A DNA stretch of 20,398 nucleotides, from positions 1-20,398 of the IMG/VR virus record IMGVR_UViG_3300037071_004967. One strand, given 5' to 3'. The DNA comes from a virus. Shown here in pieces: positions 140-14,063 of the stretch; within the stretch, counting starts at the first letter, position 1; every line of letters begins with the position of its first letter. The notes below the pieces were generated by a model. The model ran no database searches. It had not been told where the DNA came from and was given only the letters and a program-made list of their open reading frames with translations. The translations under genes were made by a program, and so were the position numbers.

Positions 140-1600
140 TCAAGTGTTGTCGATCCCTCCCAAGCCCCACGCCTCCATTTGTGTCACGACCTGATTCATG
201 CCGCCGCGAAGGTGCGTGTAATTTCCACGCTTAACACAGACGGAAATATGGTCATCCCACATATGGCTGATAAACTTCATCGAAATGGCGTAGTCGGCGG
301 CAATCGGGCGCGGTTTGGTGTCCTGTTCGTAGTGGCGCAATTCCACCTTGAGGCCGCGCTCCTCGGTACGCTTCGCGATAATATCGAACTCGTCTTTGCG
401 GCATCCAAGGATCGCCACGACCGGGAGCTTGGCGCGCTCCTGCCCGTTTACCTTGCGCTCCTGCTTGTCGAGGGTCCGCATATGTTCCTCGGATGTCTCC
501 ACGCGCTTCCGCAATCCTTCGACCTCTTCCAGAATGAGGCTGTTCATTTCTTTGAGTTCGGCGTTTTCTAGCCGGATGTCGTCGAGCATCTTGGCGAGCG
601 ATTGCGCCGCCGCGACGAACGGGTTGAGCGACACCTCGGCAAGTACAGGCGCGTTTTTAGATGGAGAAACGACCGCCGCCGCCCCAACATTACCGCTTTC
701 CGCTTGGGAGTGTACGGTTGTCGGTTGGCCGGCCGCAGGCACGGCGGGAGGGATTGGAGCCTGCGCCGTTTTGGTCGGCGGTCGTTTCAATTCGTTGGTG
801 AGCGCACCGAATGCGCCGCACTTCATGAGGATTTCGCGCGAGGTTAGAACCTTATGGCGCTCCTTTGGGAGAAGTTGGTTTTGCGCGGAGCGCACGGCAT
901 CGAGGACCATGCGCGAGCCGGCCCAATCGTCCGCCGAGGGAATTGTATTGAGGCCGTCAGCACGTAGCCGCGCCGCCGCGAGGACGACGACGTTGTTGAG
1001 TTCATCGCGCGACCATCGGATATAATGCCGGCCGCCCTCAGAGTAGGGGATGCGGCCTGAACCGGGTTTGCGAACCGGGATAATAATATGCCGTGGTTCG
1101 TGCTTTTCTGTGTGCTCCCCGTTCGCCGCTCCCCCGTTTTTCCCTTCCCCCTCTTCCCTTTCGTGCCCCCCGTTTACCTCGCTTATCCCGTTCACCGCTT
1201 CCTGTTGTCGTCCTATCCCTTCATCGACGGCGGCCTCCAAGTCCGCGCGTGTCTGAATTTTAGATACATCGGGCTCTAGTATTTTTGCTACCATGACTTT
1301 CTCCTTTTTTTTCTTTTTGTTTTTGGGTGTGTGCTTGCTTGGTGCAGGCCGTGCAGGCCGCGAGGCTATCGGTTGTCCGGTGAGCTTGGAAAGTAACTCA
1401 GGGGCTAATTCGCTGCCCCTGTGCCATAAGTAGTTGTGATCCCGAGGGCAAAACTTGCGCCTCAATTCCATAGTAACCGGATCGGGTATATCCTTGGGGT
1501 TGCTAATCGTTTTCATGCAAGGATTTTGCGGCTTATGATTTAGCGTTTTGGCAACGCGACCCCCTGTTTTTCCCGGCCCCTTGCTGTGACTGTTTTTCAT
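140..1600 (-). CDS. DUF2325-like protein with coiled coil and basic N-terminus
   Basis: The 486-residue frame has four parts. The first is a basic N-terminal part with a Lys-rich stretch near residues 93-100. An acidic/Gly linker follows. The middle block (about 165-270) contains RWSRDELNNVVVLAAARL, which looks like a small helical DNA-binding or SANT-like segment. A coiled coil spans about 330-390. The C-terminal 90 residues (VVAILGCRKDEF, then ISHMWDDH and LRGGMNQV) resemble the Rossmann-like DUF2325 family, which has no settled function. A second plausible start is the ATG at 1294, preceded at good spacing by AGGAG and an A8 run. That would give 384 residues, and the upstream 102 codons would then be a separate or optional extension. 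A promoter-like TTGACA/GATAAT pair lies 50 bases upstream of 1600. Function is inferred only as a phage nucleic-acid-associated protein. Confidence 0.75.
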   Translation of the reverse strand: MKNSHSKGPGKTGGRVAKTLNHKPQNPCMKTISNPKDIPDPVTMELRRKFCPRDHNYLWHRGSELAPELLSKLTGQPIASRPARPAPSKHTPKNKKKKKEKVMVAKILEPDVSKIQTRADLEAAVDEGIGRQQEAVNGISEVNGGHEREEGEGKNGGAANGEHTEKHEPRHIIIPVRKPGSGRIPYSEGGRHYIRWSRDELNNVVVLAAARLRADGLNTIPSADDWAGSRMVLDAVRSAQNQLLPKERHKVLTSREILMKCGAFGALTNELKRPPTKTAQAPIPPAVPAAGQPTTVHSQAESGNVGAAAVVSPSKNAPVLAEVSLNPFVAAAQSLAKMLDDIRLENAELKEMNSLILEEVEGLRKRVETSEEHMRTLDKQERKVNGQERAKLPVVAILGCRKDEFDIIAKRTEERGLKVELRHYEQDTKPRPIAADYAISMKFISHMWDDHISVCVKRGNYTHLRGGMNQVVTQMEAWGLGGIDNT

Positions 1601-1651
1601 AGGTCATTGCCAGCCGGAGGCGCATAACTAGGCGCACATCCGACACACATA

Positions 1652-1682
1652 ATTATCGACCCGTCCCCGCCCCGGTTGTCAA
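1652..1682 (-). promoter_or_regulatory. Sigma70-like promoter for the DUF2325-like gene
   Basis: On the minus strand a perfect -35 box TTGACA (1682-1677) is followed after 19 bases by GATAAT (1657-1652), five of six matches to the -10 consensus. It lies about 50 bases upstream of the ATG at 1600. The spacer is at the long end of the usual range and very G-rich. It is not tested experimentally here. Confidence 0.5.
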
Positions 1683-1924
1683 CACGGGAAAACCCCGGCG
1701 AATGCAACTTGCAATGTTGTTAAGGGTCCGGCGATCCCTCTCCCATAACGCCCGGTTATAGCTCTGAGCCCCCTGTTTTACCTGCAAAGCGCGGTGTGTT
1801 TCCCGGCTTCGCCCCAATATGCAGCTCCACCGGGAAACGGCCTCTAAATCAGGCCCGTCATGACCTCGCTTCCCACTGCCTAGCATTAGCGTATCTAATT
1901 CGTCAATATCTTTTACAGGACACT

Positions 1925-1963
1925 AAAAAAGCCGCCCCCGTTGGCACGGAAGGCGGCCCTTTT
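1925..1963 (-). terminator. Rho-independent terminator of the early minus-strand operon
   Basis: Read on the minus strand, GGCCGCC and GGGCGGC flank a loop of about 15 bases and are followed by TTTTTT. The hairpin starts about 20 bases after the stop of the ribbon-helix-helix gene (1985), the last gene of the block. The plus-strand reading also ends in a short T run, so some bidirectional action is possible. Confidence 0.75.
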
Positions 1964-1984
1964 AATCCAGTATCCAATCCAGTA

Positions 1985-2182
1985 TTACAAACAGCGGGCG
2001 CGAACGTACTCCGCGACGCTTGAGAAGCCGGCCGCCTTCGCGAGCGCGGCAAACCGCGTGTGCTCGTCATCAGTCACACGGATTTGCAGGAACTTAGCAG
2101 AGGGCACGGCCGCCCGTCGCCGGTAGGTGTTGCCGGCGTTGCCGTGTGGCTTGGGCTTTTGCGCGGGTTTAGGCTTAGTCAT
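1985..2182 (-). CDS. Ribbon-helix-helix (CopG/MobC-like) small DNA-binding protein
   Basis: The protein has 65 residues: a basic, Pro/Lys-rich N-terminus followed by a ribbon-helix-helix pattern from about residue 34 (KFLQIRVTDDEHTRF, then AAGFSSVAEYVRARCL). In this fold the short beta strand (FLQIRVT) binds the DNA groove as a dimer. Many members are small repressors or relaxosome accessory proteins. The start at 2182 is preferred because GGGGGAG lies at good spacing upstream; a start at 2209 would add nine residues without a better signal. It overlaps the upstream gene by 8 bases and is the last gene before the terminator. It is a natural candidate to bind one of the repeated sites in this window, but that is inference. 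Confidence 0.8.
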   Translation of the reverse strand: MTKPKPAQKPKPHGNAGNTYRRRAAVPSAKFLQIRVTDDEHTRFAALAKAAGFSSVAEYVRARCL

Positions 2183-2351
2183 CGACCGGCTCCCCCGTGA
2201 CCTCGGCAATGAGGTTTTTGGCGCTCGTTAGATAGGCCGCGACGCTTCGGACCCCATCAGGCCCGAGCGCGTGCGAGCGGAGCATCAGGATCGACTCAAC
2301 CGCGAACGCTAGGCCGCGCAATTCCTTCAACAGTTTTTCTTCGTTGCTCAT
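2175..2351 (-). CDS. Small unknown phage protein (58 residues)
   Basis: A 58-codon frame starts MSNEEKLLKELRGLAFAVES and ends EVTGEPVDD. It is mostly helical in composition, with no known motif recognised. The case for a real gene is positional: a strong GAGGAGG Shine-Dalgarno lies 7 bases upstream of the ATG at 2351. The ATG also overlaps the upstream stop as ATGA, and the stop overlaps the start of the ribbon-helix-helix gene by 8 bases. It fills what would otherwise be the only long gap in this part of the operon. Function unknown. Confidence 0.8.
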   Translation of the reverse strand: MSNEEKLLKELRGLAFAVESILMLRSHALGPDGVRSVAAYLTSAKNLIAEVTGEPVDD

Positions 2352-2566
2352 TTGCTGGCCTCCTCACGGTTGACCTCGCAAAACTCCTCAAACGTGCATC
2401 CGCCCTTGAGGTAGTCCGCCGCGCTCGTTGCCGTGCGCTCCGTGCCTCCCATCGTCGCGGTGTACGCTTCGCGGAGTGCGCGGTGTGAATGCCGGCGCGC
2501 TTGGGTTTTGGCGTCGGCTAGGTTGCCGTTTACGAACGTTTCAATCAGGTTTTTAACTGCGCTCAT
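2348..2566 (-). CDS. Small unknown phage protein (72 residues)
   Basis: It starts MSAVKNLIETFVNGNLADAK and ends in a segment with YLKGGCTFEEFCEV. This layout (helix, Arg/His-rich middle, then a Leu-Lys-Gly-x-x-x-Phe-x-x-x-Cys ending) recalls short proteins of mobile elements and phages whose function is unknown; I recognise the style but not a named family. The start at 2566 is chosen over 2602 because the upstream stop is at 2573-2571, only four bases away. The TGA overlaps the next ATG as ATGA. Confidence 0.7.
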   Translation of the reverse strand: MSAVKNLIETFVNGNLADAKTQARRHSHRALREAYTATMGGTERTATSAADYLKGGCTFEEFCEVNREEASK

Positions 2567-2570
2567 GGTG

Positions 2571-2975
2571 TTAGTTTTTGGCGGGTGTTTTTGTGTTGGC
2601 AATCATTTGCGCGAGGGCTTCGTTTTCCCATCGCTTAGGCCGCAAGACGCGCAGGCGTACAACGTCGTGCCCGCGCCGGATATGCGCGACGCACGCCTCT
2701 ATTTGCGCGGGTGTGCTTTCCGGCATCGGCAAAACCATAAACGAGCAACCGTCGCGGTTCGCTAGCTCAGAATGCCACGCGATCCCGGCGTGCGCGCAGT
2801 CAGGCCAAAGTTTATGGCAATGCGTGAATGCCCACTTGCGTTCGTGCTCATCGCGCACGGCAAGCGCCTCAAACCCGCGTTGAATTTGCCCCCATTGCTC
2901 AGAGGAAAAATCGCGCGGGACTTCCGCAATCGCCGCGACCCCTTCACAAAAGAAATAATAAGGCCGCGTGCTCAT
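2571..2975 (-). CDS. Unknown phage protein (134 residues)
   Basis: It starts MSTRPYYFFCEGVAAIAEV. It has an aromatic-rich N-terminus, Cys and His residues in the middle (FTHCHKLWPDCAHAG, about residues 50-65) that could bind a metal, and a helical Arg-rich C-terminus. No family is recognised. GAGGGG lies upstream of the ATG at 2975, and the ATG overlaps the upstream stop as ATGA. One copy of the repeated 11-mer lies inside the gene at 2702-2712. Confidence 0.7.
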   Translation of the reverse strand: MSTRPYYFFCEGVAAIAEVPRDFSSEQWGQIQRGFEALAVRDEHERKWAFTHCHKLWPDCAHAGIAWHSELANRDGCSFMVLPMPESTPAQIEACVAHIRRGHDVVRLRVLRPKRWENEALAQMIANTKTPAKN

Positions 2976-3253
2976 TGGTTGCCCCTCGCTTTGTTCAACG
3001 CTTCGCGCGCTTGTTTAAGCGCCTTCGCCCAAACGGCCGCCGCTTCCGACATAGGCGCGTCCGGCATGAATTGGTTTTTCGCGTTCGTGTTGTTGACGAT
3101 GAACGCGAGCGCGAAAATCAAATCGGGCAGGCCGGTTTCACGGTCAATAGTTTCCGCCTTCACCGTGGAGTGCGGCAATGGATAGGGAAGGGATTCGATG
3201 GCGCGGACGGCGCGCAAAGCGCCGCCCGATTGTTGACTATATTGAGTGCTCAT
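2972..3253 (-). CDS. Unknown phage protein (93 residues)
   Basis: It starts MSTQYSQQSGGALRAVRA. The middle has a hydrophobic segment, LPDLIFALAFIVNN (about residues 41-54), and the C-terminus is helical and Ala/Lys-rich. An in-frame ATG at 3286 would add 11 residues, but that ATG lies inside a conserved hairpin. The same hairpin occurs before two other genes with different spacing, so the extra codons look like part of an untranslated leader. No Shine-Dalgarno is present; the start follows ATCCAGAAAA. Function unknown. Confidence 0.65.
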   Translation of the reverse strand: MSTQYSQQSGGALRAVRAIESLPYPLPHSTVKAETIDRETGLPDLIFALAFIVNNTNAKNQFMPDAPMSEAAAVWAKALKQAREALNKARGNQ

Positions 3254-3348
3254 TTTTCTGGATTTTGTTTCGATGCGTGAGTGCATCGGTCAACCCTCAC
3301 GCGCTAGGCGCGAGGGTTGACGGGGAACTCACACGTTTGCGCGGGTTC
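3254..3348 (-). promoter_or_regulatory. Two-hairpin leader module, copy 1
   Basis: Reading towards the gene on the minus strand, a strong hairpin comes first. Its arms are 3312-3321 and 3289-3298 (10 base pairs), with an inner GCGC/GCGC stem. A second hairpin follows with arms CGATGC (3288-3283) and GCATCG (3276-3271) and a 6-base loop ACTCAC. The leader AAATCCAGAAAA then runs into the ATG at 3253. The 14-mer at 3334-3347 abuts the previous stop codon. The same order recurs at 4027-4113 and 5352-5433. No T run follows the first hairpin, so it does not look like a terminator. Confidence 0.6.
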
Positions 3349-3702
3349 TCAAAACGGCGCGTCCGCGTGCGCGGGCACCTCGGGAATTGCAAACCCGGTC
3401 GCGATTTCAAAAAGCCCTTGCGTGTGTTTATTGATCCACGCGACCGCCTCCCATTGCCCCTTGGAAATGCGCCGGGTAGTTATCCCGAGGGCTTTGCATA
3501 CGGCGCGCGTGCGTGCGTGCCGCTTGTAGGAGTTCCAAAACGCGACGCCGGGCACTCCCATGACGACGGCCTTAGGTTTGCCCTTGGACGTTTCTTTAAT
3601 GTCGGCGGCCTCCCATTGAATTTTTAGGTCGGATATGTCGGCGACGGTTAGCGTGCTAACGTGAGGGACGGCGGCGTTTTCGATTAGGATTTGTGTGCTC
3701 AT
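3349..3702 (-). CDS. Unknown phage protein (117 residues)
   Basis: It starts MSTQILIENAAVPHVSTLTV. The middle contains GVPGVAFWNSYKRHARTRAV, a Gly/Pro turn followed by a basic helix, and then a segment resembling a small helix-turn-helix (CKALGITTRRISKGQWEAV, about residues 69-87). The C-terminus is Pro/Ala-rich. A DNA-binding role is possible but weakly supported. The start at 3702 follows the leader AAATCCAGAAAA, the same leader as in three other genes of the block, here without the two hairpins. Confidence 0.65.
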   Translation of the reverse strand: MSTQILIENAAVPHVSTLTVADISDLKIQWEAADIKETSKGKPKAVVMGVPGVAFWNSYKRHARTRAVCKALGITTRRISKGQWEAVAWINKHTQGLFEIATGFAIPEVPAHADAPF

Positions 3703-3744
3703 TTTTCTGGATTTTTAGAGGGTTAAAATTTGCGCGGGTAGGCG

Positions 3745-4026
3745 TTACGAGCAACAGCCGCAACAAGGGGCATCCTCGCAACGGCCGCGCGAGTTCTGAA
3801 ACGTTTCCGCTCCGCTTGAAAAGCGCGCGTAAACGATGCGCGACGACGACGAACGGCGCGCGCGCGGCGCGTACGTTGACGGCCCCGCGTTCGCGACGAT
3901 GGAGCGCGCTTGCTCCGCGTTTGCGGTCGGGACATCCCAACCGTTTAACGCGCGGTTCCAACGGCCCCCGAGGGCTTTGATTTGTTCCTTAACCGGGTAG
4001 GTGTTACCTGTAATTAGTGTATGCAT
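3745..4026 (-). CDS. Small DUF5710-like protein with Cys-rich tail
   Basis: The protein has 93 residues. Residues 1-34 (ITGNTYPVKEQIKALGGRW, then NGWDVP) match the pattern of a short module found in many phage and mobile-element proteins (KxxxKxLGxRWxxxxxxWxVP, DUF5710-like), whose role is not settled. A Ser/Arg-rich linker follows. The tail is RGRCEDAPCCGCCS, with five Cys in 11 residues, which suggests a metal site or disulphide cluster. The start at 4026 is preferred; the in-frame ATG at 4071 lies in the conserved leader hairpin region. Function unknown. Confidence 0.7.
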   Translation of the reverse strand: MHTLITGNTYPVKEQIKALGGRWNRALNGWDVPTANAEQARSIVANAGPSTYAPRARRSSSSRIVYARFSSGAETFQNSRGRCEDAPCCGCCS

Positions 4027-4113
4027 TTTCTGAATTTTTCTGGATTTTTTTTGATGCGTGAGTGCATCCATTGCCCCCCGATTTCTCAGGGGGCAAAAGG
4101 GAACTCGCGCGGG
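4027..4113 (-). promoter_or_regulatory. Two-hairpin leader module, copy 2
   Basis: On the minus strand a hairpin with arms TTGCCCCC/GGGGGCAA (plus-strand positions 4071-4078 and 4089-4096) precedes a second hairpin, GATGC-ACTCAC-GCATC (4068-4053). An A-rich stretch with ATCCAGAAAAATTCAGAAA then runs into the ATG at 4026. The order and the loop sequence match copy 1, although the sequence of the first stem is completely different. Confidence 0.6.
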
Positions 4114-4317
4114 TTAAACCTTCGTTTTGAATCCCTCGTTTATCACGTAGCAGGCTTGCTCATAAACCTGCATCGCCCCGGATGCGTCGGCGGTTTCTTC
4201 GCCTAGAAAAAGGCCCTCAATCATGACCCCGGATGTTTCGCAGGTCATCAGGGCAAGGATTTGTTCAAGGCGTTGGCGCGTGATATACTGATACGTCGGA
4301 AGCGGTTTTGATTTCAT
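4114..4317 (-). CDS. Small unknown phage protein (67 residues)
   Basis: It starts MKSKPLPTYQYITRQRLEQI and has an acidic middle (GLFLGEETADASG) and a helical end. No motif is recognised. There is no Shine-Dalgarno. It lies between the two-hairpin leader copy 2 and a 35-codon frame. The codon composition resembles that of its neighbours. Confidence 0.6.
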   Translation of the reverse strand: MKSKPLPTYQYITRQRLEQILALMTCETSGVMIEGLFLGEETADASGAMQVYEQACYVINEGFKTKV

Positions 4318-4326
4318 GGGAAGGAT

Positions 4327-4434
4327 TTACTTTTGCGCGTTTGCGCGGGTTTTTTGTTTGGCTAGATAAGCGGAAAACGCTTTCGCGTGAATGCTATCGG
4401 CGCGGGTAACGCGCGTGAGTTTTGGCGCGTTCAA
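4327..4434 (-). CDS. Possible 35-residue protein with TTG start
   Basis: The TTG at 4434-4432 overlaps the TGA of the ArdC-like gene. The frame continues 35 codons to TAA at 4329-4327, with a plausible soluble basic sequence (PKLTRVTRADSIHAKAFSAY, then LAKQKTRANAQK). It fills most of an otherwise empty 113-base gap. GGGGAGG lies about 14 bases upstream of the TTG, farther than usual. The alternative is that the gap is untranslated; it carries one copy of the repeated 14-mer (4338-4351). Function unknown. Confidence 0.35.
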   Translation of the reverse strand: MNAPKLTRVTRADSIHAKAFSAYLAKQKTRANAQK

Positions 4435-5351
4435 GCGGCCTTTTCCTCCCCTTGCTCCTCACTCGCATACTTAATGCCCAAAACGTTCTCAAACGCGCGT
4501 TGCGCTTGCGCGGCCGCAATGACTACCAATTTCCGATCCCCTTTGATTGCCCGTATCCACGAGTCGAGATAGCTAGCCGATTGCCCTATGGTTTGCGGAC
4601 TGATGCCGACATGCGCGCAAAGGAAAGCGCTCCCCATCTCCGCGCATAACTCCTCTTTCCCGTACTTATCCGAGCCAAACTTTGCCCCATCGGTCACGCC
4701 GTCGCGGTTAAGGCGTTTTGCGTGCCCCGTTGCGTGCGTGAGTTCGTGGAAAAGTACCGCGTAATATTGTTCGGCCGTGAGAAAGTCTTTTAGGTTTGGC
4801 ATTTTCACCGCGTCAAACGTTGGCGAGTAGCAAGCGCGGTCGCCGCCGTGAGAAAGCGCGGGTTTGTCCGGCATCGCCGGGTAAATCTTTTCCGCGTCCG
4901 CGATGCGTTCGTGCTCCGCTTTAACGGGCAACGCCGGGATGCTCCATTTGATCCCATCGACTTGTTCAAGGTTGAAAACGGTATAGTAACGCAAAAGCGG
5001 GATGACTTTCTTTTCGCCGGTTTTTTCGTCCGTTACGGGGAGACGTTTCCAAAAGACAATGGGAGTTCCCTTTTCGCCCTTGCGAACGCTTCCGCCGAGT
5101 TCGCGCGCCTGATTGAACGTAACCCAAAACGGGCACGAACGGCCTAGCATCGAAAGCATAAAATAATTGATCCCCCGATATGCTTTCTTGCTCGCGTAGT
5201 TAGTCGGCAAAAGGCCGCCATTAGCCGGCGATTGCCAAGGCTTTTGCCAAGGCGCGACGCCTTTTTCCAACATTTCCAAAATTCTGTCCGTGATAATTTG
5301 ATAAACGTCCGCTTTCGCGACGGCCTCCCCTGTCTTTTTGTTCGTGCTCAT
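4431..5351 (-). CDS. ArdC-like antirestriction protein (ssDNA-binding plus zincin domain)
   Basis: The protein has 306 residues. The N-terminal half (about 13-135) has the pattern of the ArdC N-terminal ssDNA-binding domain, including APWQKPW, YRGINYFML, WVTFNQARELGGSVRKGEKG and YYTVFNLEQ. The C-terminal half carries HELTHATGH at 202-210 (His202, Glu203, His206, His210), the zinc-dependent protease signature. EELCAEMGSAFLC (233-245) supplies the usual downstream Glu. In conjugative plasmids ArdC protects incoming DNA from restriction enzymes and binds single-stranded DNA, so a phage copy would plausibly act in early infection. The start at 5351 is preferred over the in-frame ATG at 5396, which lies in the leader hairpin. 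The motifs are intact. Confidence 0.9.
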   Translation of the reverse strand: MSTNKKTGEAVAKADVYQIITDRILEMLEKGVAPWQKPWQSPANGGLLPTNYASKKAYRGINYFMLSMLGRSCPFWVTFNQARELGGSVRKGEKGTPIVFWKRLPVTDEKTGEKKVIPLLRYYTVFNLEQVDGIKWSIPALPVKAEHERIADAEKIYPAMPDKPALSHGGDRACYSPTFDAVKMPNLKDFLTAEQYYAVLFHELTHATGHAKRLNRDGVTDGAKFGSDKYGKEELCAEMGSAFLCAHVGISPQTIGQSASYLDSWIRAIKGDRKLVVIAAAQAQRAFENVLGIKYASEEQGEEKAA

Positions 5352-5433
5352 TTTGTATTGTTTTTCTGGATTTCTGGATTTGACGCCTGAGGGCATCGCG
5401 CGGCCTTCGCTTTCGCGAAAGCCGGACGGGCTC
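5352..5433 (-). promoter_or_regulatory. Two-hairpin leader module, copy 3
   Basis: A perfect 14-base palindrome, GCTTTCGCGAAAGC (5409-5422), precedes the hairpin GATGC-CCTCAG-GCGTC (5397-5382), followed by ATCCAGAAATCCAGAAAA and the ArdC ATG at 5351. Relative to copies 1 and 2 the second arm is GCGTC instead of GCATC, so the pairing is kept through a T-G wobble. This is weak evidence that the RNA structure matters. Confidence 0.55.
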
Positions 5434-5685
5434 TCAGAACCAGAGCGAACAATGGTTTTGATTCGGGTATTCGTGGATTTGAACGTGCCCCGAATCGCCG
5501 TGCGGCGTTTTCGCTTTCATTGCTTCGCCCTGCGCGAGTGCATCAGCCCTGTCCTTCACCGTGATTTCAGACAGGTGCAAAACGTCGTAATAAGGGCCGT
5601 TGCGTTTTGTGAGGGGCGTGTGGCCTAGGCGTGACCAAACGTGCAAAGTTGCGGCGTAAGTTGTGGCGGTTTTCGTGGAGTTCAT
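5434..5685 (-). CDS. Unknown early protein (83 residues), first gene of the operon
   Basis: It starts MNSTKTATTYAATLHVWSRL. The middle (NGPYYDVLHLSEITVKDRAD) and the C-terminus (SGHVQIHEYPNQNHCSLWF) suggest a small alpha/beta fold. No family is recognised. It is the promoter-proximal gene of the minus-strand early block, 196 bases from the divergent gene at 5881. There is no Shine-Dalgarno; the leader is A-rich. Confidence 0.65.
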   Translation of the reverse strand: MNSTKTATTYAATLHVWSRLGHTPLTKRNGPYYDVLHLSEITVKDRADALAQGEAMKAKTPHGDSGHVQIHEYPNQNHCSLWF

Positions 5686-5880
5686 TTCGTGCGTGTTTTT
5701 GTTTTGGATTTGCTAACGTGCCCCCTTCATCGGCCGCCTTTGTTTCACTGTCAATACAGTAATAATTCAAAACAACTCTTTTACAAATCCCAGTAGCGCA
5801 GCTTATTTGCTTTCTGACTGTAATAAGGAAAACTACTTGACGACATGCCCGACCCCTCCCCCCCTAGTTTAACCTGAGAT
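5686..5880. promoter_or_regulatory. Divergent control region between early block and packaging-side genes
   Basis: This AT-rich gap separates the minus-strand operon from the plus-strand gene at 5881. A weak minus-strand promoter is possible: TTGTAA (5786-5781), 16 bases, TATTAC (5764-5759). The inverted repeat ACTGT-N4-ACAGT (5747-5760) lies at its -10/+1 position, as an operator would. A near-palindromic TTCTGACTGTAATAA (5812-5826) lies between the two directions and is related to four sites downstream. On the plus strand TTGACG (5837-5842) has no -10 box at normal spacing. A regulatory role is likely from position; the exact start sites are not visible. Confidence 0.5.
5812..5826. promoter_or_regulatory. 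Near-palindromic site TTCTGACTGTAATAA
   Basis: The left arm TTCTGAC is identical to the arms of the perfect site at 6751-6765, and the right arm is degenerate. It lies 54 bases upstream of the plus-strand start at 5881, in a position suited to an operator. Confidence 0.4.
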
Positions 5881-6615
5881 ATGAGCACGCAAGGCACGGA
5901 AAAACCTGTTTCGCGGAGAACAAAGGCAAACCGTGAGAACGGCAAAAAAGGCGGCCGGCCTGTTGACCTGTTAGACGTGGATCAAATCACGAAAACGGCC
6001 CTTGCGACCGTTGGTGCCGGCCTAGGCTCGCGACAAATCATAAAAGGCGAGGAAAACCGGCCGCCCGTATGCACTTGGCTCAGTCTTGCCGATAGGATTT
6101 CACCTGAGGCCGCCAATTGGCTCAAAAAGGCCGTTGGTTGCTCGCCTGAGGAGTTTCGCGACCTGCTAGGCTCACGCTTAGAGCAAGTCGTCGCGCAGGC
6201 CGTGAGCACGTTGGAAACCCGCATTGCCGATATGAGCGGCCGCGACCTTGCTTTGACGTTCGGAATTTTGAATGACCATTTGCTGAAAACTCGGGGATTT
6301 AGCGGCGCGGGATCATTAACCGTTCATCAGACCAACGTGCAAATTAACGGCCTCTCACGCTCTGATGCGTTGGCGGCCCTCACGGGCAAACAAGGGCTGA
6401 AATTAGACGCCGATTGCAATGGGTTTGCTCGTAGCAACGAAAGCCCGCAACGCGCGCCGGCCGTGGAAATCACGGTAAATTCTGACAGTAAGATTGTTGG
6501 CGCTCCGCGTGCCGATTCTGACAGTAAGATTCTGGATCAATTAAACGGTGCAACGGTTACGCAAACCGTTGGTCGCACCTCTGAAAACGGCGGAAATGTC
6601 CGCGAAAACACCTAA
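5881..6615 (+). CDS. DNA-binding protein, possible small terminase subunit
   Basis: The protein has 244 residues. The N-terminus is basic with NRENGKKGGRPVDLL (about 18-32), a stretch common near the start of phage small terminases and similar DNA-binding proteins. The central part is helical, with LEQVVAQAVSTLETRIADMS and then DLALTFGILNDHLLKTRGF. That last pattern, a helix with an L-GIL-D-H/K motif, resembles a segment seen in small-terminase-like proteins. The C-terminus is low in order and repeats DSDSKI twice because of a 17-base DNA repeat. It is the first plus-strand gene and lies 3.3 kb before the large terminase. The alternative is a phage regulator. I place small terminase at less than even odds. 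Confidence 0.45.
   Translation: MSTQGTEKPVSRRTKANRENGKKGGRPVDLLDVDQITKTALATVGAGLGSRQIIKGEENRPPVCTWLSLADRISPEAANWLKKAVGCSPEEFRDLLGSRLEQVVAQAVSTLETRIADMSGRDLALTFGILNDHLLKTRGFSGAGSLTVHQTNVQINGLSRSDALAALTGKQGLKLDADCNGFARSNESPQRAPAVEITVNSDSKIVGAPRADSDSKILDQLNGATVTQTVGRTSENGGNVRENT
6479..6531. repeat. Two exact 17-base direct repeats with near-palindromic core
   Basis: ATTCTGACAGTAAGATT occurs at 6479-6495 and again at 6515-6531, 36 bases apart, within the end of the gene at 5881. Each core, TTCTGAC-A-GTAAGAT, is one arm exact and one arm close to the perfect palindrome at 6751-6765. Confidence 0.8.
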
Positions 6616-6628
6616 CGTCTTGGACACT

Positions 6629-7324
6629 ATGAGCAACGCAAACCCAACGAAAGCAGAGCAACGCAAGCAGGGCCAAACCGCTTGGCTTCGCGAACTGTTG
6701 AAACGCAACGATTTAGACGGCGCGGCGCGCTACGCTGCGAAGCACGGCCTTTCTGACTGTCAGAATGTCGCCGAACTTGACAGTCAGATTGCATCGTCCC
6801 TTCTGAAAAGACAGGGCACAGGGGGGGCGGGGGTCGCGCTTGAGCGCGCGGGTGGGAATATGTATCCATCCACTTCCCCCCAATTTTTTTCTACAAAGGA
6901 GTCGCCCGACAATGGTTTGCGTGTGAATTTGAAACCCGGTGAAGGCGTGCAGATTTTTCGTGGCGAGTACGGAGCGGTACAAACTGAAACGCCCGAGTGC
7001 CAGGATGTGCCGCCATTTGATCCGCCGTACACGGTGAGAACGGAAGGGCCGTGCAACGAGACGGTGCCGCAAGTGGGCATTCCGCGTGATTTGGAGCCGG
7101 CGAGGGAGAAACTGCCTGCTGGGGTTTATTGGGCGGTGATGACGGCCAAGATGCAGAACCAGCGGCGATATTGGGCGACGATCAAGGGTGAGCGTGTGCA
7201 GGTGTGGGTGACGCTGCGGGATCGGGCGAAAATGATCCGGGTGGTTGGGCGGACGTTGCCGGTGAAGGTGAACGCGGATGCGTTGCAGGGCGGCTATGTT
7301 CTTTGGAAAGGAGGTGCGGCGTGA
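6629..7324 (+). CDS. Unknown phage protein (231 residues)
   Basis: It starts MSNANPTKAEQRKQGQTAWL. The N-terminal 60 residues are helical and basic. A Gly/Pro/Ser-rich linker follows, then a C-terminal beta-rich part (LPAGVYWAVMTAKM, RRYWATIKGERVQVWVTL, GGYVLWKGGAA). No family is recognised. An in-frame ATG at 6596 would add 11 residues and overlap the previous gene by 20 bases. The start at 6629 is chosen because TTGGA lies 5 bases upstream, but the choice is uncertain. Two near-palindromic sites (6751-6765, 6775-6789) and a long G run (from 6817) lie inside it. Confidence 0.65.
   Translation: MSNANPTKAEQRKQGQTAWLRELLKRNDLDGAARYAAKHGLSDCQNVAELDSQIASSLLKRQGTGGAGVALERAGGNMYPSTSPQFFSTKESPDNGLRVNLKPGEGVQIFRGEYGAVQTETPECQDVPPFDPPYTVRTEGPCNETVPQVGIPRDLEPAREKLPAGVYWAVMTAKMQNQRRYWATIKGERVQVWVTLRDRAKMIRVVGRTLPVKVNADALQGGYVLWKGGAA
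6751..6789. promoter_or_regulatory. Pair of palindromic sites, one perfect
   Basis: TTCTGAC-T-GTCAGAA (6751-6765) is a perfect palindrome with 7-base arms around one base. ACTTGAC-A-GTCAGAT (6775-6789) is a close relative starting 24 bases later. Both lie in the coding sequence. They are candidate protein-binding sites of the same family as 5812-5826, 6480-6494 and 6516-6530. Confidence 0.55.
7307..7315 (+). promoter_or_regulatory. Consensus Shine-Dalgarno that selects a GTG start
   Basis: AAAGGAGGT lies 5 bases upstream of the GTG at 7321, whose last bases overlap the TGA of the previous gene (GTGA). It decides the start of the 114-residue protein against longer upstream alternatives. Confidence 0.8.
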
Positions 7325-9880: not shown

Positions 9881-11536
9881 ATGCTAGGCCAGAAGTTTTT
9901 CACCAATGAGCTAAAGCTCGATTTCGGAATGCCGTGGCAGGAGCGTTTCACGCGGCCCGAGCTTTACGAGTCGTGGACGGACGCGGCCATCACGGCCGAA
10001 CTGGAGCAAAAAACGCTCATCGAAAACGCCGCGATCCTCGACCCGATACAGTTTGGTTGGACGCTCCCCGGTTGGCGCGAGGTCATGGAAAATTGGGCGG
10101 CCTACGACACGCATTGCGTCTTTGGCGGCAACCGATCCAGCAAGAGCGTCTTTTGCGCGCGTCTGTTTGTGGATTTGCTGATGCTCATTCCCGAGGCGCA
10201 AATCCGGTGCTATCACGTCAACTTGGAAAAGAGCATCGCCGAGCAACAGGCGTTTATTTGGGACGCCCTGCCCGACCGCTACAAACAAATGCCCCGCCGC
10301 AAGGGCATCGCGCATTCGATCCAGTATTCACAGAAAAACGGGTTTGTCGGCGGCAAGTTGATCCTGCCCCCGCAACCGGGACGGCGGCGCGGTTCCGAGA
10401 TGATTTTCGGGACGTATTCACAGTACAAGGACGATCCGCAATGCGTCGAGGGCTGGTGGGCACACGCGATTTGGGCGGACGAGGAGATGCCGCTCAAAAT
10501 GTTCGAGCGCCTGTTGACCCGCCTGTACGACACCAAGGGCCGCATGGTCCTGTCGTTTACGACGATCCAAGGTTGGAGCCCGCTGGTTGCAGACATCCTA
10601 GGGCGCGTTGCGGTCCTTCGCCGCCGTTATAGTCACCTCCTCAAGCGGGAAATCCCGGTCGCGCAGGAGAGTTTGCGCCGCAAGGGCACTCGTATCTATT
10701 ATTTTTGGACACAGGACAACGCCTTCATCCCGTCCGATGTCATCGAGAAATTGCGGGGCCGGCCGCCCGATGAAATCTTGGCGATTGCTCATGGCATCCC
10801 AACCAAGCCGGCCCTGTCCAAGTTTCCGAAATTCGACGAGACGGTGCATGTCATGGAGCACAACCGGCTGCCGTGGCTCATCCCGGCGAAGGAGGACACG
10901 CCCGAACTGGAGTTCACCCGCTACCATGTCATCGACCCTTCCGGCCGGAAACCGTGGACGATGCTATGGGCCGCCGTCGATCCGGCCGGGCGCATCTACG
11001 TTTACCGGGATTGGCCGGACGAGGCGGCCGGCGCGTGGGGTGAACTCAACGAAAAGCCCGAGGGCAAGGCGGGGCCGGCGCAACAGCCCAACGGCTTCGG
11101 CATCGGTGACTACGTGGAGCGCATCAAAATGGTCGAGGACGGGGAGGAGATTTTCGAGCGCCTGATTGACCCGCGCCTAGGTGCGGCCCTGTCCGTCACC
11201 AAAGAGGGCGCAACGTCGATCATTACCGAGCTTGAGGACGCCGGGATGCTCTGCCTCGCCGCTCCCGGCCTGCATGTCGATCACGGCCTTTCCCTCATCA
11301 ATGACCGCCTGAGCTACAACCAGACCGCGCCGATTTCGGCCATGAACACCCCGCGCCTGTTTATCTCCGACCGCTGCACGAACCTGATTGAGTGCATCAA
11401 AAACTACACGGGCGCGGGCGGCCCCGATGAAGTGTGGAAGGATTTCATCGACTGCCTGCGCTACCTGTTGGAGCACGGCGCGGATTTCGTCTCCAAGGCG
11501 GACCTGCGCCAGAGCGGCAAAAGTTTCTCGTACTGA
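9881..11536 (+). CDS. terL: Terminase large subunit (packaging ATPase and nuclease)
   Basis: The protein has 551 residues. It pumps DNA into the prohead and cuts the concatemer. Walker A is GGNRSSKS at 82-89, and Walker B is HAIWADEEM with Asp200-Glu201. A coupling segment SFTTIQG lies at 225-231. The RNase H-like nuclease half starts at YHVIDPSGRKP (Asp352), with later acidic residues LIDPR (Asp430) and the C-terminal DFIDCLRYLLEH. The length is normal for the family. The start at 9881 lacks a Shine-Dalgarno; the next ATG (codon 17, GMPWQERF) is the alternative. It is unusual that the gene is separated from the putative small subunit by a minus-strand cassette. Confidence 0.95.
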   Translation: MLGQKFFTNELKLDFGMPWQERFTRPELYESWTDAAITAELEQKTLIENAAILDPIQFGWTLPGWREVMENWAAYDTHCVFGGNRSSKSVFCARLFVDLLMLIPEAQIRCYHVNLEKSIAEQQAFIWDALPDRYKQMPRRKGIAHSIQYSQKNGFVGGKLILPPQPGRRRGSEMIFGTYSQYKDDPQCVEGWWAHAIWADEEMPLKMFERLLTRLYDTKGRMVLSFTTIQGWSPLVADILGRVAVLRRRYSHLLKREIPVAQESLRRKGTRIYYFWTQDNAFIPSDVIEKLRGRPPDEILAIAHGIPTKPALSKFPKFDETVHVMEHNRLPWLIPAKEDTPELEFTRYHVIDPSGRKPWTMLWAAVDPAGRIYVYRDWPDEAAGAWGELNEKPEGKAGPAQQPNGFGIGDYVERIKMVEDGEEIFERLIDPRLGAALSVTKEGATSIITELEDAGMLCLAAPGLHVDHGLSLINDRLSYNQTAPISAMNTPRLFISDRCTNLIECIKNYTGAGGPDEVWKDFIDCLRYLLEHGADFVSKADLRQSGKSFSY

Positions 11537-11939: not shown

Positions 11940-14063
11940 ATGGCATCGGTGAACAAGGTGAGCGCGCAACAGGCGGAAAACGATCCGGCCTTTCAGATTG
12001 CGCCGCCAGACGGGGACGGCCCGAACATGGGAGCCCTGCAAACGGCGTTTAGTCGCACGATGTCGGATACACAACCGTACCTCGACCAATGCCGGCAAAA
12101 CTACGAGACACGGTTTGCGATTTGGAACGGGCAGGCGGCGGACGGAAAGAAACACGCGAGAGAGGCAGGAGGGAAAATCGACCCGACGCCGTGGGATGGG
12201 GCGAGCGATTTGCGGGTGTACCTCGTTGACGGGGCGATCCGGTACAAGGTGGCACGCAACGGCATCGCCCTCCGCAAAGCGAACCTCGTTGCCGTGCCGG
12301 TGAACGGGGCGGATATAACCCGTGCGCGCGTGGTGAGTAACTTCATGAAGTGGCTCGTAAACACGCAGATTCCCGAGCTAGACCGCGAGGAGGAGTTGCT
12401 TTCAAATTATATCGAGGAAAAGGGCGTCGCGGCGACCGGGCAGTTTTGGGAAGTCTGTCAGGAAAAAACCCTCGTCACCCTGCGCCTGTCGGAATTTCAG
12501 CAGCAGTTTCCGCAAATGGATGTGCTGGCCCTCATGTCGGAAGAGGCGACCGCCGACCAGTTGCAGGCGATCCTTGAGGAAATCTACGGCATCAGCGCGA
12601 AGAAGGCGAAAGCGGTCCTCAAAGACCTGCGCGTAAAAGGAGAATCCGCCGTGCCGATGAACGGCCGCAAATACTCCCGCCCCGTCGTCCGCGCCTTCTG
12701 CCTCGACCGCGATTTATTCATTCCGTCGTGGGCAACCGACATCGAGACGTGCCCGTATATTTTCCGCGTCGAGTATTTTACGGCTGAACAACTCCGCGCG
12801 TTTTCCAACTCCGAAGGGTGGGACAAGGGTTGGACCGAGGCGGCGATTATGAAGTGCCGGGGCCGCATGGTTACGGTCATCCCGGACGCGACCCTGCAAC
12901 CGATTTCGCGCTCGTTTATTTATATCGACCGCAAAGTAATGTATACCGATTTGATCGGCGTCGTCTTTGCGTATCAGCGCCTCTCTGACGACGAGGGCGT
13001 GCCGGGTATTTACCTCACGATTTTCAACCCGTTTTTATCGAAGGACGCCGCCCAACCCGGCTATGCCAAGTTTGGCCTTCTCGGGTATCAGCACGGCGAA
13101 TACCCGTTCGTCCTGCACCGCAAAGAGTACCTTTCCCGTAAGCTCCATGACTCGCGCGGGACTCCCGAGACGGGCAAGGCGTGGCAGGACCAAATCAAGG
13201 CGCACCGTGACTCGCGCATTGATGCGGCCTCCCTCGCCATTGTCCCGCCTTTCGGGTATCCGCTTGGCCGGCCGCCCGCCCGGTGGGGTCCGGGTGTCCG
13301 CATCCCCGAGCGCCGCCCCGGCGAATATCATTTCATCGACAAGCCGACCGGCGACGTAAACACGGAGACATCCGAGGATCGCCTGATGAAGTCGTACAGC
13401 GAGTACAACGGGATCAACGGCGAAGGCTCCGACCCGGTGCTCACGAACACGCTCAACCAGCACGAAGTTGAAAAATTCCTGATGGGTTGGTGCAAGGCAT
13501 ACCGGCAGGTCTGGAAACTGTATCAGCAGTACGGCGACGAAGAGGTTTTCTTCCGCGTCATCGGCCTTCAGAACGCGCAGCCGCAGGTTTTCAAAAAGGG
13601 CGACCCGAGCGAGGACTACGATATTTATATGTCGTGGGACGTGTTCAGCATGTCGCCTGAACAGCAGACGCTAAAACTCGAAAACATCGCGAAGATTTGC
13701 GCGACCGCCGACAAGTACGGGCAGGTCGATTATTCCGAACTCCTGCAAATCCTCATCGAGTCCGTCGATCCGAACGTTGCCGAGCGCATCATCCTGCCCA
13801 AAGACACGGCCGCGAAAAAGTTTGTCGAGGAGGAGAAACAAGCCCTCGCGCAAATCTACTCCGGTTTCGACGAGGACATCAAACAGGGCTCGCCGCCGCA
13901 AATGGGGTTGCAGGTCATGCAGCAGTATATGCAAGCGCCCGATGTGCAGCAGCGTTACCAGAGCGACGAGGCTTTCAAGGGCCGCCTCGACAAGCGTTTC
14001 AAGCAATACAATTTCCAGATCACGCAGGAGCAAAACGCGCAAATCGGCCGCCTCGGTGCTTAG
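11940..14063 (+). CDS. Portal protein
   Basis: The 707-residue protein would form the dodecameric ring at one capsid vertex through which DNA enters and leaves. The N-terminal part has WDGASDLRVYLVDGAIR followed by a long helical region ending in NFMKWLVNTQIPELDREEEL, a layout typical of large phage portals. The middle is beta-rich (DRDLFIPSWATDIETCPYIF). Clip- and stem-like helices follow, and the C-terminus is Gln-rich and helical (QVMQQYMQAPDVQQRYQSDE). The gene follows the terminase and precedes the scaffold and capsid, the conserved head-gene order. A length of about 700 residues is found in several podovirus-type portals. Confidence 0.9.
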   Translation: MASVNKVSAQQAENDPAFQIAPPDGDGPNMGALQTAFSRTMSDTQPYLDQCRQNYETRFAIWNGQAADGKKHAREAGGKIDPTPWDGASDLRVYLVDGAIRYKVARNGIALRKANLVAVPVNGADITRARVVSNFMKWLVNTQIPELDREEELLSNYIEEKGVAATGQFWEVCQEKTLVTLRLSEFQQQFPQMDVLALMSEEATADQLQAILEEIYGISAKKAKAVLKDLRVKGESAVPMNGRKYSRPVVRAFCLDRDLFIPSWATDIETCPYIFRVEYFTAEQLRAFSNSEGWDKGWTEAAIMKCRGRMVTVIPDATLQPISRSFIYIDRKVMYTDLIGVVFAYQRLSDDEGVPGIYLTIFNPFLSKDAAQPGYAKFGLLGYQHGEYPFVLHRKEYLSRKLHDSRGTPETGKAWQDQIKAHRDSRIDAASLAIVPPFGYPLGRPPARWGPGVRIPERRPGEYHFIDKPTGDVNTETSEDRLMKSYSEYNGINGEGSDPVLTNTLNQHEVEKFLMGWCKAYRQVWKLYQQYGDEEVFFRVIGLQNAQPQVFKKGDPSEDYDIYMSWDVFSMSPEQQTLKLENIAKICATADKYGQVDYSELLQILIESVDPNVAERIILPKDTAAKKFVEEEKQALAQIYSGFDEDIKQGSPPQMGLQVMQQYMQAPDVQQRYQSDEAFKGRLDKRFKQYNFQITQEQNAQIGRLGA

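Follow-up and report, generated by a model that had tools for sequence, protein, structure and literature searches.

The window analysed here is a whole virus record of 20,398 bases (G000) from a phage whose capsid protein is SU10-like. A leftward run of genes, which is probably an early phage operon, begins near position 5685 and faces a rightward gene at 5881 (5881-6615). In three intergenic gaps of this run, before the genes starting at 5351, 4026 and 3253, the minus strand carries copies of one module, one per gene and spaced by approximately 780 and 1330 nt (Table 1). At 4322-4432, a small basic open frame of about 35 aa with a TTG start shares bases with the ArdC stop codon and may be a real small gene. 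Operator-like repeats around CTGACTGTCAGA are found at 5814-5825, 6482-6493, 6518-6529, 6753-6764 and 6777-6788; the window holds 12 matches to this word (up to 2 mismatches, both strands) vs 2.3 expected, mostly in or around the divergent gene 5881. The word TCTGACTGTCAGA occurs near the homolog of that gene in a related phage (L075, approximately 430-450), and these repeats may be sites at which a phage regulator binds. The same contig carries near its end (L075:1-1420) long runs of short tandem repeats, with units such as TATCTGGC, GGCGGTC and GCAGCACC.

Table 1. Parts of the three module copies and neighbouring genes in the window
Feature	Position	Strand	Basis
Copy 3 P3a, CTGAGA, overlapping the stop codon of gene 5434-5685	5432-5437	-	complementary to H2 loop
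Copy 3 H1, GAAA loop	5401-5424	-	folding and covariation
Copy 3 H2, GATGC-CCTCAG-GCGTC (GATGCCCTCAGGCGTC)	5382-5397	-	sequence match and covariation
Copy 3 A-rich leader, two ATCCAGAAA words	5352-5381	-	word counts, base composition
ArdC-type antirestriction gene behind copy 3	4431-5351	-	Pfam ArdcN and MPTase-PolyVal; PHROG 7245
Copy 2 P3a, GCGAGT	4103-4108	-	complementary to H2 loop
Copy 2 H1, GAAA loop	4071-4096	-	folding and covariation
Copy 2 H2, GATGC-ACTCAC-GCATC (GATGCACTCACGCATC)	4053-4068	-	sequence match and covariation
Copy 2 A-rich leader, ATCCAGAAA and ATTCAGAAA	4027-4052	-	word counts, base composition
Small gene behind copy 2, function unknown	3745-4026	-	PHROG 5664/2656
ATCCAGAAAA leader of gene 3349-3702, without module	3703-3712	-	sequence
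Copy 1 P3a, GTGAGT	3327-3332	-	complementary to H2 loop
Copy 1 H1	3289-3321	-	folding and covariation
Copy 1 H2, GATGC-ACTCAC-GCATC (GATGCACTCACGCATC)	3272-3287	-	sequence match and covariation
Copy 1 A-rich leader with ATCCAGAAA	3254-3271	-	word counts, base composition
Gene of unknown function behind copy 1	2972-3253	-	open frame, no Pfam/PHROG match

On the mRNA the parts of the module follow each other in the order P3a, NCCC, first hairpin (H1), second hairpin (H2), A-rich leader and start codon, the entire six-base loop of H2 serving as the second strand (P3b) of a helix with P3a. The H2 sequence has no other match in the whole record at up to 2 mismatches beyond the three copies, and words similar to ATCCAGAAA are found 14 times vs 3.0 expected, a count that none of 100 shuffles reached. 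Compared with 200 shuffles each, all of which folded more weakly, the three leaders gave folding z-scores of -7.5, -4.5 and -4.2. A first-pass annotation of this DNA had described three leaders composed of a strong hairpin, a 5-6 bp hairpin with a six-base loop and a short stretch before the start codon, and all of these parts are present, on the minus strand. As it proposed, H1 keeps its place and not its sequence: it lies in one register in the three copies, with both sides changed in 6 of 11 pairs. The second stem of copy 3 does stay paired by a wobble (U.G), and gene 3702, for which a ATCCAGAAAA leader alone had been reported, indeed lacks the module; relatives of its protein were looked for and none was found. 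The view of a two-hairpin module held for both hairpins and overlooked the third helix, P3, which makes it a three-helix module.

The alignment of the three copies revealed a conserved GAG[TA][TG]CCC before H1, and the strand preceding H1 pairs with the H2 loop as GTGAGT/ACTCAC in copy 1, GCGAGT/ACTCAC in copy 2 (one C.A) and CTGAGA/CCTCAG in copy 3 (one A.C), that is, with one non-standard pair each in copies 2 and 3. The complementarity of these six nucleotides to the loop gives the module the option of a kissing-like pseudoknot. In kissing loops a six-base loop may be wholly paired to another strand, so that P3 and H2 could form together; a loop-linear arrangement of this kind is what we infer. 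When knots are left aside, the energy gap between the fold with P3 and H1 and that with H1 and H2 is approximately 7 kcal/mol in copy 3 and 1.5-2.5 kcal/mol in the other copies, including the fourth one described below. The H1 loops are of the GNRA type.

The fourth copy comes from a related phage. The first-pass annotation had proposed a covariance search for further copies with compensatory changes, and such a copy was obtained. The covariance model (R1), built from the three copies with H1 and H2 and with P3 left out, finds all three in the window and, over approximately 1.05 Mb of related phage DNA, gave one further match, at 12,619-12,676 of G013 (L051; IMGVR_UViG_3300033076_000846), with 26.9 bits and an E-value of 0.004 over the approximately 1.05 Mb (1.6e-4 for the record). 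Its H2 stem is letter-identical to those of copies 1 and 2; H1 and the loop, in contrast, are changed almost throughout and yet paired. In the R1 alignment the P3a columns are occupied by CCGAUU, with UCCC after it; this strand forms 6/6 pairs (one G.U) with the loop AAUUGG, none of them modelled beforehand; in shuffles of the 23-nt stretch, 6/6 pairing occurred with a frequency of 0.0017 at the site and of 0.03 anywhere in the stretch. The capsid, portal and terminase proteins of G013 are 52-63% identical to those of the window, and a homolog of gene 5881-6615 (26% identity) is found near 13,080. The G013 element lies approximately 400 nt left of this homolog, as copy 3 lies approximately 440 nt left of gene 5881; the gene that follows the element codes for a protein of 145 aa without a Pfam match, vs ArdC in the window. 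The cassette thus keeps its place while the gene that it serves differs.

To evaluate the three helices, the four-copy alignment (A4) was trimmed to begin at P3a, with the register of the fourth copy taken from the covariance-model alignment. Over 84 pair cells, 95.2% are paired vs 78.6% in shuffles, and nine pairs (six in H1, three in P3) are changed on both sides. The covariation score is 0.635 vs 0.287 in shuffles (0/500 reach 0.635); three of the four copies are paralogues of one genome, a relatedness that the shuffle controls keep in. Sliding the partner columns by 1 to 3 positions reduces pairing to 34-42%. The three-helix structure is thus well supported. The bare architecture, without any sequence, is found at 116 places in 2.46 Mb of strand (approximately one per 21 kb), so that a lone copy without covariation would be meaningless and the claim rests on recurrence and covariation. 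Since the fourth copy has changed in matching pairs, we conclude that the module is a real RNA element, and one of an uncatalogued family: no Rfam 15 family reaches its gathering score in the window, and nothing relevant appears at E ≤ 5 around the elements and the G013 copy. Within this otherwise diverged RNA the H2 stem is nearly invariant, as is the CCC after P3a, suggesting that a protein or the ribosome recognises them.

The strand on which the element acts can be judged from its non-Watson-Crick cells. Read in the mRNA sense, the pair cells include 6 G.U vs 2 A.C, and pairing amounts to 95.2% on the mRNA strand vs 90.5% on the other. A scan for sigma-70-like promoters over 2500-6000 gave no site, and no terminator-like sites were found at the modules. 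The better pairing on the mRNA strand, together with the lack of promoter and terminator in these scans, favours an RNA within the genes' own transcript. The proposal of a repeated phage RNA element matching no described class is supported by these wobbles, as it is by the compensatory changes and the Rfam result. The same data make it very unlikely that the module acts as DNA, be it an operator, a cruciform or a recombination cassette: H2 is near-palindromic, and the module precedes unrelated genes, the one behind it being exchanged between phages, which would suit such an element, but the G.U cells improve pairing on the mRNA strand, the H1 loops are GNRA-type, the two strands of P3 covary although H1 and 30-40 nt lie between them, and no promoter-like site was found in the scan.

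A second model (R2), with P3 and H1 and built from the four copies, was run on 56 records; it scored its training copies at 66-72 bits and everything else at 15.7 bits or less. The search extended to approximately 85 related or similar records, and two phages alone were found to have the element. It is absent from the closest capsid relatives, G001 and G002 (75% identity), and from the ArdC relatives; an apparent H2 at 41655 of G002 was discarded, as it lies inside a gene. Scans of viral and genome collections with H2 DNA patterns in various contexts returned chance matches only, located within coding DNA or close to it. When the loop before ATGAGCAC was left free, at least 119 stretches matched; among the matches listed, the G013 contig was the sole fit. 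In six named phage records no convincing copy was seen. A scan of 200 bacterial genomes found none either, which says little, as 27 candidates were scored per genome. An unrelated two-hairpin leader, with no match to the models, lies directly before the ArdC gene of another record (L029:5936-5989, MW202801.1).

Several described elements share features with the module. STAXI RNAs (RF01728) are pseudoknots that recur, frequently in the neighbourhood of genes for antirestriction or other handling of DNA (Weinberg 2010, PMC2864571), and occur as two or three tandem pseudoknots in Enterobacteriales, often with UUCG loops (PMC2864571). Repeated predicted pseudoknots and a nearby antirestriction gene are also encountered here, but the pseudoknots are single, each before its own gene, approximately 780 and 1330 nt apart and not in tandem. 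STAXI was rejected, with no match in G000 at E ≤ 10 and 7.6 bits elsewhere in G013 vs a cut-off of 40.5. The promoter-early stem-loops (PeSLs) of T4-like phages are composite promoter-terminator motifs (cited in PMC4503421). The module resembles them in being a small stem-loop cassette that lies between genes and is reused as phages exchange genes, and differs in being a covarying three-helix RNA; a PeSL cassette was rejected, since the elements have no sigma-70-like promoter, the only type scanned, and no terminator-like site. In type III toxin-antitoxin systems, including the AbiF type, ToxI pseudoknot repeats pair with an endoribonuclease toxin (PMC12373285). The module is similar to ToxI RNAs as a small repeated RNA, predicted to form a pseudoknot, beside a gene, and this candidate was dropped because no ToxN, AbiQ, CptN or AbiF-type toxin was found among the neighbours with Pfam and PADLOC.

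How the genes behind the module are translated was considered next to the rest of the genome. The three genes have no Shine-Dalgarno, with duplex energies of approximately 0 kcal/mol, as the first-pass annotation had observed; this holds true, although it is common to many genes of the phage and not special to these. Shine-Dalgarno use is mixed, being strong before the genes at approximately 1294, 2351, 2975, 7321 and 16992 and absent before many others, including those at 9881 and 14440. A role of the modules as substitutes for absent Shine-Dalgarno sequences was therefore discarded, because genes with no module lack them too. The leaders of the four copies are 52-69% A, with distances from H2 to the start codon of 18, 26 and 30 nt in copies 1 to 3 and of 29 nt in G013. 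In L073, a relative with no module, the reverse strand of 1200-3060 carries a comparable A-rich leader, CCAGAAAACCAAAAACTACACAAAATG, which suggests that such leaders serve as start regions in general, with the knot added on. As gene 3702 and L073 both have similar A-rich starts and no module, the module is not required for initiation as such.

An AUG within H2 could act as a second start, so that the segment would code for an N-terminal extension. In copies 1 and 3 this AUG shares the reading frame of the gene, and a Shine-Dalgarno-like GAGG or AAGG in H1 precedes it by 7-8 nt. Copy 2 is out of frame, the G013 frame is closed by TAA, a stop lies directly before the leader of gene 3702 and the H2-to-start distances vary among the four copies, all of which makes this possibility, raised in the first-pass annotation as a potential refutation, extremely unlikely: it fails in copy 2 and in G013 and stays open in copies 1 and 3.

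We tentatively favour, from sequence and position, a role of the module as a cis-acting intercistronic translation element at the junctions of the leftward operon. P3a starts 16 nt past the upstream stop codon in copy 1, 5 nt past it in copy 2 and overlaps it in copy 3; in G013 it lies 5 nt past the stop of a short open frame. Given this distance of 0-16 nt, a terminating ribosome would cover P3a in most copies, which would couple folding to upstream termination. The proposed mechanism is as follows. Just 3' of the stop codon that closes the preceding open frame, the RNA would fold as a loop-linear, kissing-like pseudoknot that compacts the intergenic RNA and leaves the A-rich start region single-stranded; this open region would admit a ribosome with no need of a Shine-Dalgarno. 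The full knot would form in vivo only once the terminating ribosome has left, so that folding would follow upstream termination and the module would exert translational control of the next gene. A trans-acting regulator might plausibly join the three genes into a regulon. In the predicted folds, no sequestration of start codon, Shine-Dalgarno or terminator was seen; the start codon is free in both, and a switch is thus not obvious.

The main rival, possible but less likely, is a site for mRNA processing or stability, where an RNase III- or RNase E-like cut, or a block to exonucleases, would provide every early gene with a separate mRNA end, as happens in the early region of T7. The early intercistronic RNase III sites of T7 are structured RNAs between early genes, with longer stems that are cut by RNase III, and to our knowledge they have neither a pseudoknot nor a constant short hairpin. 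The module is likewise structured RNA between early phage genes, but it has a constant short hairpin and a predicted pseudoknot, and its stems are shorter. Processing would agree with strong hairpins located exactly between the genes of one operon, with the lack of promoter or terminator consensus at the modules, and with an H1 kept by compensation while its sequence is free to change, as expected of a site for a double-strand enzyme or of a barrier. On the other hand, the H1 stems of 9-14 bp are short for RNase III, such a model calls for neither the P3 helix nor a conserved H2 sequence, and some junctions of the operon have no module.

Next after processing, and rather unlikely, comes an operator or riboswitch bound by a protein or ligand, in which a binder of the constant H2 stem and CCC, either a small molecule or a protein of the phage or its host, would repress or activate the three genes jointly, like gp32 on the T4 gene 32 mRNA. 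That operator, described in T4, T2 and RB69, comprises a pseudoknot (about 28 nt in T4) and unstructured A+U-rich repeats; it serves one gene, which has a Shine-Dalgarno, and its autoregulator gp32 is known (PMC3014915, PMC535899). It is the nearest system in layout, both being phage mRNA leaders between genes with a compact pseudoknot, which in the module is a predicted one, 5' of an unstructured, repeat-bearing start region. The module precedes three unlike genes, however, encloses H1 inside the predicted knot, carries ATCCAGAAA repeats and has neither a Shine-Dalgarno nor a known binder. None of the genes behind it encodes a single-stranded-DNA-binding protein, the products being ArdC or proteins that match no such family, and for this reason it is not a gene 32-type operator. 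As a more general model, binding by a regulator would account for the letter-identical G013 H2 stem where nearly all else has changed, for an element common to several genes and for a predicted pseudoknot before an unstructured leader, a layout resembling that of the gene 32 operator (PMC3014915, PMC535899). It is weakened by the lack of a known binder and by a start codon and Shine-Dalgarno that are not sequestered; moreover, the downstream proteins are mutually unrelated, so that simple autoregulation cannot serve all of them.

Returning to the intercistronic translation element, its boldest form, which we regard as doubtful, would be a new class of riboregulator in which the ribosome terminating upstream covers one strand of a loop-linear pseudoknot; upstream termination would thereby set the fold and, through it, how the next early gene is translated or its mRNA cleaved. 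The cassette would be reused before unrelated genes and keep its place while the gene is exchanged. A pseudoknot-like cassette that is independent of the gene it precedes, occurs repeatedly in a single operon and stays in position even between diverged phages would represent a portable part for early-gene control from uncultured phages. It would also offer a direct test of control without Shine-Dalgarno in polycistronic mRNA.
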